Below are positions 50,890 through 51,472 of a stretch of DNA of 54,467 nt, in pieces (the first letter of the stretch is position 1; each line of letters opens with the position of its first letter). Origin of the DNA: Cytophagales bacterium (lineage in GTDB: Bacteria > Bacteroidota > Bacteroidia > Cytophagales > Cyclobacteriaceae); the NCBI GenBank assembly GCA_025358885.1, contig JANYHW010000094.1, positions 1 through 54,467 of the forward strand. Direction: 5' to 3'. The notes under the pieces were generated by a model that was not told where the DNA came from, made no database searches, and saw only the letters and a program-made list of their open reading frames with translations. The position numbers and the translations under genes are program-made.

Positions 50890-50956
50890 TGGCCCTGTTG
50901 GATTTGAACCAACGACCACCTGTCCCGATAGCTATCGGGAGAGTCAGTGCTCTCCC
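50890..50956 (-). pseudogene. Left tRNA remnant: 3' half with palindrome in the anticodon loop
   Basis: 50891-50922 is identical to 50980-51011 of the intact tRNA and covers the variable region, T arm and 3' acceptor strand. Then, in place of five anticodon-loop bases, the 18-bp palindrome (50923-50940) follows. Then GAGTCAG-TGCTCT, which matches the 5' side of the anticodon and D arms with one base missing. Past 50953 the match fades. GGGAGAG (50937-50943) and CTCTCCC (50950-50956) form a further 7-bp hairpin not present in the intact copy. Cannot give a working tRNA. Confidence 0.85.
50923..50940. repeat. 18-bp perfect palindrome, left copy
   Basis: TCCCGATAGCTATCGGGA reads the same on both strands. 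It replaces the five bases ATTAT (plus strand) of the intact tRNA's anticodon arm. Confidence 0.95.
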
Positions 50957-50977
50957 TAATTCTACAAACTACTTAAG

Positions 50978-51051
50978 TGGGCCCTGTTGGATTTGAACCA
51001 ACGACCACCTGATTATGAGTCAGGTGCTCTAACCGTCTGAGCTAAGGGCCC
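50978..51051 (-). tRNA. tRNA with anticodon CAU, probably tRNA-Ile2
   Basis: A complete cloverleaf on the minus strand: acceptor GGGCCCT/AGGGCCC with discriminator A, D arm GCTC/GAGC, anticodon stem CCTGA/TCAGG with loop CTCATAA (anticodon CAT, at 51017-51015), T arm GTTGG/CCAAC. CCA is not encoded. Similarity to E. coli tRNA-Ile2, including C4-G69 and C5-G68 that favour lysidine formation by TilS, suggests it reads AUA as isoleucine; elongator Met is the alternative. Its own promoter lies upstream. It is flanked by two broken copies. Confidence 0.9.
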
Positions 51052-51064
51052 TTGAAATTGGCTG

Positions 51065-51093
51065 CAAGTTTAATTATTTAATCCCGACTACAA
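51065..51093 (-). promoter_or_regulatory. Promoter of the intact tRNA
   Basis: On the minus strand, TTG (51093-51091), an 18-base spacer and TAAACTTG (51072-51065) nearly fit the Bacteroidota consensus (one mismatch in the -7 element, spacer one base short). It lies between the GIY-YIG stop and the tRNA, so the tRNA can be transcribed independently of the nuclease gene. Confidence 0.5.
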
Positions 51094-51107
51094 AAACGGT
51101 TCTTTTC

Positions 51108-51416
51108 TCAAGGATATTTTTGGCGGAGTTTCTCAACAATTTCGGGGTATTGCTTTAAGGATTGAAGATACTTTCTGCTCTTCATTCTCTTGATGTGGTT
51201 CTCAATCCGAATCGCCTGGGAGTACGACGTGCACGGAACCGACAAGAAAAGCTCCCAATCCTTGGCCTTCCTCGAATAGGAATCATCGTAGAATCCAGTC
51301 CGATGTTTTTCAACACGATCTGTCAGATCTGTGTGGGTTGCCCCTACATAGAAACTATCCAATGATGGGCTGAATAATATGTAGCAAGAGGTTGGCACAA
51401 ATCGTGTGGCGACCAC
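51108..51416 (-). CDS. Small GIY-YIG nuclease
   Basis: 102 residues from a GTG at 51416; a second GTG at 51398 is an alternative. It is a one-domain GIY-YIG nuclease: CYILFSPSLDSFYVGATH holds the two strands (GIY as YIL, YIG as YVG). The catalytic Arg is in DLTDRVEKHR, and the Glu in IRIENHIKRMKSRKYL. This is the URI/UPF0213-like group, often present in many copies in Bacteroidota. The first GTG lies in the anticodon stem and variable region of the right tRNA remnant, so its first residues are tRNA-derived. The frame is closed upstream by a TAG inside the palindrome. A target is not known. Confidence 0.85.
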   Translation of the reverse strand: MVATRFVPTSCYILFSPSLDSFYVGATHTDLTDRVEKHRTGFYDDSYSRKAKDWELFLSVPCTSYSQAIRIENHIKRMKSRKYLQSLKQYPEIVEKLRQKYP

Positions 51417-51472
51417 CTGTCCCGATAGCTATCGGGAGAGTCAGGTGCTCTAACCGTCTGAGCTAAGGGCCA
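51410..51472 (-). pseudogene. Right tRNA remnant: 5' half with palindrome in the anticodon loop
   Basis: 51438-51471 is identical to 51017-51050 of the intact tRNA (acceptor 5' strand, D arm, 5' anticodon stem). Then the 18-bp palindrome (51420-51437) replaces the same five bases as in the left remnant. CGACCACCTG (51410-51419) continues the 3' anticodon stem and variable region before the match ends in the GIY-YIG coding sequence. The T arm and 3' acceptor are missing. Base 51472 makes position 1 a U, which would pair with A72 of the left remnant. Confidence 0.85.
51420..51437. repeat. 18-bp perfect palindrome, right copy
   Basis: Identical to the left copy (50923-50940) and in the same place of the anticodon arm. 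It contains the TAG that closes the GIY-YIG frame upstream. Confidence 0.95.

Follow-up and report, generated by a model that had tools for sequence, protein, structure and literature searches.

In a Cytophagales draft genome we found an intact tRNA gene with the anticodon CAU and a small GIY-YIG nuclease gene lying between broken, hairpin-marked copies of the same tRNA. The DNA analyzed was a 54,467-nt stretch (the window), and the same arrangement recurs at many tRNA genes of other genomes, where the target follows the nuclease lineage, and empty sites occur in related species. We consider it probable that the window locus is a member of a widespread family of minimal, free-standing elements of the homing type that insert into tRNA genes and rebuild them, leaving a hairpin-marked piece behind. 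To judge from sequence comparisons, the nuclease presumably cleaves its target and the element presumably moves.

Structure of the window locus and its nuclease

On the minus strand of positions 50890-51472, a 5' tRNA piece is followed by a palindrome, the GIY-YIG gene, tRNA(CAU), a second palindrome and a 3' tRNA piece. The features, in this order, are:

51438..51471, minus strand: displaced 5' tRNA piece (tRNA bases 2-35) adjoining the native upstream flank; exact 34-nt repeat of the intact tRNA
51420..51437, no strand assigned: palindrome TCCCGATAGCTATCGGGA instead of bases 36-40 of the tRNA (anticodon loop plus the first base of the stem), from sequence comparison
51410..51419, minus strand: tRNA bases 41-50, continuation of the displaced 5' piece, read from the sequence
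51108..51416, minus strand: GIY-YIG nuclease gene, 102 aa as listed (Pfam PF01541, E 5.6e-9)
51052..51107, minus strand: spacer with a promoter-like region upstream of the intact tRNA, suggested by TTTTTG and TAAACTTG in the sequence
50977..51051, minus strand: intact tRNA, anticodon CAU, probably tRNA-Ile2 (ARAGORN; Rfam RF00005, 76.6 bits)
50941..50953, minus strand: degenerate tRNA bases ~22-35 with one base missing, beginning of the 3' displaced piece, read from the sequence
50923..50940, no strand assigned: second palindrome TCCCGATAGCTATCGGGA, at the identical tRNA position, from sequence comparison
50891..50922, minus strand: displaced 3' tRNA piece (tRNA bases 41-72) adjoining the M50 protease gene; exact 32-nt repeat of the intact tRNA

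A preliminary description of this DNA had placed the intact CAU tRNA and the GIY-YIG gene between two broken tRNA copies, and the sequence, ARAGORN, Rfam and Pfam all confirmed this. It had also reported the same 18-bp palindrome at the same anticodon-loop site in both broken copies, and we indeed found that TCCCGATAGCTATCGGGA replaces five bases in and next to the loop in each of them. These two copies were the only ones within 2 mismatches in the window, and none was found in 100 dinucleotide shuffles. The tRNA repeats in the window are exact over 34, 32 and 35 nt, and ARAGORN and Rfam each detected a single tRNA at the locus. The listed start of the nuclease gene overlaps the displaced 5' piece; homology suggests that the GTG at 51398 is perhaps an alternative start. 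We take the motif upstream of the intact tRNA to be a promoter motif of the Bacteroidota type. The tRNA itself, which in our judgment resembles E. coli ileX, is likely tRNA-Ile2, given this resemblance and its being the sole member of its class among the three CAU tRNAs of the draft genome.

The outer pieces had been described as the 3' half and the 5' half of one split tRNA. They are displaced 5' and 3' pieces as described but they are not clean halves, as they overlap across approximately tRNA bases 22-50, each spanning the palindrome and running into the far side of the anticodon stem; the overlap means that they do not correspond to two halves left by a single cut. An apparent U1-A72 acceptor pair, offered as proof of a single split ancestor, failed as such: relatives have G1-C72, and T1 with A72 occurred in none of the 37 distinct CAU tRNAs in the fetched loci. 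The apparent pair is readable as the loss of one base at each end (TTTTTTGGCCC versus TTTTTTGGGCCC in the relative L127; GGGCCAC versus GGGCCCAC). The left (3') piece would be better read as a separate 3' unit lacking a nuclease, as in L110 and L051. The group of pieces likely represents one 5'-type unit with a nuclease and one nuclease-less remnant of the 3' type around the intact tRNA.

Two models were rejected for the window. No group I intron was found there at Rfam gathering scores and the tRNA was the sole Rfam match, which led us to reject a group I intron. Within the unit, the GIY-YIG gene is the only ORF of at least 60 aa on the tRNA strand; an integrase-type island was rejected since the unit contains no integrase gene.

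GIY-YIG was the only Pfam match of the window protein, with no Y1/HUH transposase domain, and it matched all 21 aligned family members, seven of which additionally matched T5orf172. The residues Y, Y, G, R, H and E were invariant in the 21 aligned rows and are retained in the window protein as Y12, Y23, G25, R34, H38 and E72. The AlphaFold model of the nuclease had a mean pLDDT of 92. Similarity to UPF0213-like small GIY-YIG proteins was present in sequence and in fold: the nearest solved relatives in a profile search were UPF0213 proteins (1zg2, E 3.1e-12) and Slx1, before I-TevI, and the top Foldseek match of the model was also 1zg2 (E 4.6e-3, probability 1.00, TM 0.48-0.52), with the same families among the matches and none at E below 0.001. 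A tblastn search of 50,697 phage records gave no match to the window protein at E 1e-3, and two proteins, that of the window among them, had no PHROG match at E 0.01; on this basis we rejected a phage origin, the SegB sequence itself being outside the comparison. The dN/dS values were 0.06-0.49 in 20 of 21 listed close pairs, which are non-independent, and the remaining pair had a dS of 0. In the tRNA-Ala unit (L016:1381-1578), the nuclease frame extends into the displaced tRNA piece, which gives the protein a tRNA-derived tail.

Recurrence, targets and hairpins

The source genome is a 3.84-Mb draft of 246 contigs, and its tRNA set is incomplete since only 24 tRNAs were found. It contains five GIY-YIG matches and 20 copies of the palindrome within 2 mismatches. 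All three of its small GIY-YIG genes lie beside an intact tRNA and a palindrome-broken tRNA piece, at the tRNA(CAU) of the window, at tRNA-Thr(UGU) and at tRNA-Ala(GGC). At the tRNA-Thr site the 5' half and the upstream region are duplicated, with the nuclease in between and the palindrome in the anticodon loop. At the tRNA-Ala site the nuclease comes after the intact tRNA, and the displaced 3' piece has the palindrome in its T-loop. The two GIY-YIG genes with longer frames (608 and 470 aa), presumably UvrC and a DnaQ-type protein, had no tRNA in the fetched loci.

A profile built from these three small nucleases was used to search other genomes and matched 39 of 58 genomes, the source genome included, in a first sample. 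Seventy-six named loci were taken from genome contigs; to judge by the titles, nearly all came from Bacteroidota, the exceptions being a few from Ignavibacteria and a single one from Neomarinimicrobiota. Among the 105 loci L021-L125, 104 had a nuclease match, and an intact tRNA lay within 1 kb of the nuclease in 87 of these (84 of 101 when three duplicates were left out); as a rough figure, we estimate that some 2% of such a genome would lie that close to a tRNA. When the three loci of the source genome are added, all 90 of 90 nucleases share the strand of their tRNA, 71 lying downstream of it and 19 upstream. Additional exact tRNA fragments of at least 12 nt were found within 1.5 kb at 78 of the 90 loci, with none at the other 12. 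In a sample of the phylum (296 genomes, at least 90% complete, the source genome included) nuclease matches were found in 187. Linkage to a tRNA was examined at 29 new best loci from this sample, and 26 of them had an intact tRNA within 1 kb, always on the same strand and with the nuclease downstream (24 of 27 once two loci already present in the first set are left out). The preliminary description had proposed to look for palindrome-flanked GIY-YIG genes at other tRNAs, and such palindrome-marked genes were widely found in two samples.

An intact tRNA within 1 kb was not found at 17 of the 104 loci of the first set and 3 of the 29 of the second. For these 20 loci an Rfam search gave one tRNA (L051), and in 10 of them a tRNA match of at least 15 nt on the plus strand stood among the five top-ranking word matches listed for each locus. 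Several of the 20 sit at contig ends. We also noted several nuclease matches at extreme contig ends (G205:C3, G098:C39, G085:C20, L048, L049), as if assemblies break at the repeated units.

The insertion interval recurred by target. For Met(cat) the interval 35/41 was found in 11 unique pieces at 8 loci, the window and two Ignavibacteriales among them, and further recurring intervals were 22/27 for Arg(cct), 26/44 for Gly, 30/44 for Val(tac) and 45/51 for Asn. We built a nuclease tree from 85 sequences (83 different) and mapped the identity of the target tRNA on it, which required 20 changes relative to a shuffled mean of 52.8; none of 200 shuffles was as low, in a tree in which 41 of 80 inner branches are open and near-copies help clustering. 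Host orders were mixed on the same tree (22 changes over 48 named rows). The target tRNA and the insertion point track the nuclease lineage, which argues for sequence-guided targeting.

The displaced pieces are marked by hairpins. A first-pass palindrome search detected 95 palindromes other than the tRNA's own arms in displaced pieces at 56 of the 90 loci. After repeats were collapsed 71 remained, of which 52 were centered in a loop or in the variable region (anticodon loop 25, T-loop 10, D-loop 10, variable region 7) and 19 in a stem. At 30 of 90 loci this search gave no palindrome with tRNA matches on its flanks, and at 34 of 90 only the tRNA's own arms or nothing. As a rule, 3' pieces come after downstream nucleases and 5' pieces come before upstream ones. 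The palindrome-bearing pieces were mostly 3' pieces where the nuclease is downstream (42 of 71) or 5' pieces where it is upstream (16), the exceptions being 12 5' pieces at downstream loci and one 3' piece at an upstream locus. Since this first pass sought palindromes, inserts were defined in a second pass solely by two flanking colinear tRNA matches of at least 9 nt. Such inserts were present at 85 of 137 loci, and 66 of the 105 distinct ones had at least 5 complementary outer arm pairs, relative to 0.8% of shuffles; some of the other 39 were longer readings of the same sites, with the palindrome plus extra bases. The outer bases of the inserts often read YCCCGA...TCGGGR, with a center that is variable yet self-complementary, as seen in the inserts at the T-arm of tRNA-Asp in L116, L162, L164, L166, L171, L174 and L180. 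Other outer sequences, for example TCCGCC...GGCGGA, occurred too.

The hairpin is not confined to the element, since the palindrome types of the tRNA pieces also occur away from tRNAs. In the first sample the palindrome was present in 28 of 39 genomes with a nuclease match versus 2 of 19 without, kinship being ignored. In the phylum sample CCCGATAGCTATCGGG (at most 1 mismatch) was carried by 41 of 187 genomes with a match versus 9 of 109 without (Fisher p 0.002, ignoring kinship), and at least three copies were present in 17 of 187 versus 1 of 109 (Fisher p 0.004, ignoring kinship). We examined 22 rpmI-rplT regions and found the palindrome type in 3 of the 20 readable ones; other loci there hold different hairpins, one of which, TCCGCC...GGCGGA, is a type also found in displaced tRNA pieces. 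The palindromes at rpmI-rplT belong to the source genome (L005/L210, G000:C200:17548-18048) and two relatives (L211, L214), and other genus members (L219, L225, L229, L231) had different short hairpins there, TCCGCC...GGCGGA among them. At L004 (G000:C154) and L006 (G000:C238), palindromes were embedded in longer imperfect repeats and no tRNA was shown.

Occupied sites, empty sites and arrays

An M50 protease is encoded next to the window locus. Among 58 genomes of the genus, 50 had a match to this protein, and we fetched 30 loci, the window's own included. In the stretch upstream a CAU tRNA was found on the M50 strand in 13 of 30 loci and on the opposite strand in 8; none was found in 9. A nuclease lay beside the tRNA in 3 of the 13, namely L126 (the window), L137 and L150. 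In L127, L131 and L142 a single plain tRNA was found next to M50 and both nuclease and palindrome were absent. The uninterrupted tRNA at the orthologous place upheld the proposal that a nuclease-bearing unit had been inserted in the tRNA gene along with an intact copy; the prediction that relatives would carry such a tRNA beside M50 proved correct, but the U1-A72 acceptor predicted for it did not, the relatives having G1-C72. The flank upstream of the plain tRNA in L127 aligned with the one that adjoins the window's displaced 5' piece, indicating that this piece marks the native tRNA position. Occupied (L126, L150) and empty (L127, L131, L142) alleles of this one site were seen between species of one genus, not between strains.

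L149 has a plain tRNA next to M50 and a remnant of the nuclease C-terminus upstream. Local alignment of the close genomes L149 and L150 gave 91% and 97% identity on the two sides and one additional unit of ~400 bp in L150, which consists of tRNA bases 1-14, a palindrome, bases 18-32 and the nuclease, followed by a second copy of the upstream region and of the whole tRNA. This unit-sized difference is located at the D-loop. Given the nuclease remnant in L149, the pair could also reflect loss of a unit.

Tandem arrays were also found. L095 (CP012155.1, titled complete genome) has 11 units of ~80 bp, each with tRNA-Asn bases and a D-loop palindrome, upstream of the intact tRNA, and at least 5 nuclease copies downstream with T-loop palindromes in the pieces between them. 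L110 has six nuclease-less 3' units, and tandem nucleases also occur in several genomes from the phylum sample, for example six copies ~381 bp apart in G302. The examined stretches of L095 and L110 contain a single intact tRNA; more than one whole copy was found in L045 and L087. The nuclease-less tandem arrays of tRNA pieces (L095:1544-2424, L110:2256-2873, L051), with palindromes in L095 and L110, resemble non-autonomous copies of the element.

Mechanism, alternative explanations and known systems

In the mechanism that we propose, the nuclease would cut the tRNA gene at the hairpin position, and recombination would copy in a unit ending in a copy of one part of the tRNA, so that a whole tRNA is rebuilt and the native part is pushed aside. 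The hairpin would destroy the cut site in the displaced piece and hinder loss by recombination between the tRNA copies, and repeated cutting of the rebuilt tRNA might give rise to the frequent tandem arrays. A point against the homing account is that the rebuilt tRNA has an uninterrupted presumed cut site, which raises the question of how the host tolerates the nuclease; for SegB, the available text of a published study discusses efficient repair and a donor allele that is cut to a limited extent (PMC13096335). As for expression, a T-run lies between the tRNA and the nuclease domain in 52 of 71 downstream loci, which makes transcription from the tRNA promoter doubtful and leaves capture of that promoter through a missing terminator unsupported. 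At upstream loci, a -7-like motif was present upstream of 7 of 19 intact copies and 7 of 14 located displaced copies.

Could the hairpin itself be the mobile entity? A structure-specific GIY-YIG enzyme of the Slx1/UPF0213 kind might act on hairpins or cruciforms, and palindromes would then spread to stem-loops throughout the genome, tRNA arms included, in the manner of REP elements. The presence of the palindrome types beyond tRNAs, at 3 of the 20 readable rpmI-rplT loci, keeps this account alive, and the 20 dispersed copies in the source genome, the excess of genomes with at least three copies among those with a nuclease match (p 0.004, ignoring kinship) and the closeness of the nuclease to UPF0213 and Slx1 before I-TevI agree with it. 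On the other hand, the insertion point tracks the tRNA target and the nuclease clade, the palindrome occurs in 9 of 109 genomes without a nuclease match, and that same palindrome is absent from 146 of 187 genomes with one. We regard this account as unlikely, though worth keeping in view.

A role that serves the host or its defense, in which nuclease-driven amplification of tRNA loci increases tRNA dosage or makes up for tRNAs lost to defenses that cut them, would fit the tandem nuclease copies of several genomes. It has a precedent in SegB, for which such a role is reported; in the available text, the enzyme is said to make its cuts inside tRNA genes and to cause their tandem amplification (PMC13096335). 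The arrays, however, multiply broken tRNA pieces and nuclease genes around the single intact tRNA of the examined L095 and L110 stretches, and we consider such a role improbable. Still less credible is the idea that a tRNA gene was simply duplicated in tandem and then decayed, the neighboring nuclease gene being unrelated. Duplication can produce broken copies, and the left piece in the window is degenerate, but the same arrangement was found at many tRNA types in two samples with hairpins far above shuffles, and the single plain tRNA in relatives, that is the empty sites, together with this recurrence already contradicts duplication. That the feature is an assembly artefact, as its position ~3 kb from a contig end in a 246-contig draft might suggest, we find hardly conceivable, as a like architecture was found in L095, from a sequence titled a complete genome, and in many other assemblies.

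The homing account that we favor has parallels in known systems. Homing genes inserted in mitochondrial genes, such as Allomyces atp6, displace the native gene end and supply a replacement; that case concerns a protein gene of a fungal organelle, whereas the present one concerns tRNA genes of bacterial chromosomes and a recurrent hairpin. REP palindromes with Y1/HUH transposases, and IS200/IS605 elements, likewise tie short dispersed palindromes to a nuclease gene, but the enzyme here is GIY-YIG rather than HUH and the palindrome lies within tRNA pieces. Seg/SegB of T-even phages are free-standing GIY-YIG nucleases beside tRNA genes with a wide range of tRNA isotypes, according to the available text of the reports (PMC13096335, PMC2988022); the SegB gene belongs to a phage and lies between tRNA genes, and that text describes neither a split tRNA rebuilt by the element nor a hairpin-marked piece. 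Group I introns in tRNA anticodon loops combine insertion in the anticodon region with a homing nuclease, as the accessible part of PMC3984707 relates; in the window, which has no intron at Rfam gathering scores, the tRNA is a second copy and is not restored by splicing. Integrase-type tRNA islands are also flanked by one complete and one partial tRNA and measure ~9-23 kb in the portion of PMC9897764 at hand, but the present units are ~0.4-0.6 kb, break at internal arms and, in the window unit, have the GIY-YIG gene as the sole ORF on the tRNA strand. A literature search, with bioRxiv and most subscription papers outside its range, found no published description of the arrangement in bacterial chromosomes; the nearest reports were those on phage SegB, tRNA introns and mitochondrial homing genes.

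As a bolder and rather doubtful proposition, the loci could represent a new class of mobile element, in which a structure-specific GIY-YIG protein of ~90 residues reads the arms of tRNA genes as DNA hairpins, inserts and rebuilds the tRNA, with YCCCGA...TCGGGR as the end of the element and also as REP-like repeats. The findings point to a selfish element that has essential tRNA genes of bacterial chromosomes as its targets and persists because it rebuilds them. Such an element connects nuclease specificity with hairpins and with the arms of tRNAs. It could account for partial tRNAs and for unusual GIY-YIG genes in annotations, and it would offer a tractable system for the study of homing in bacteria.
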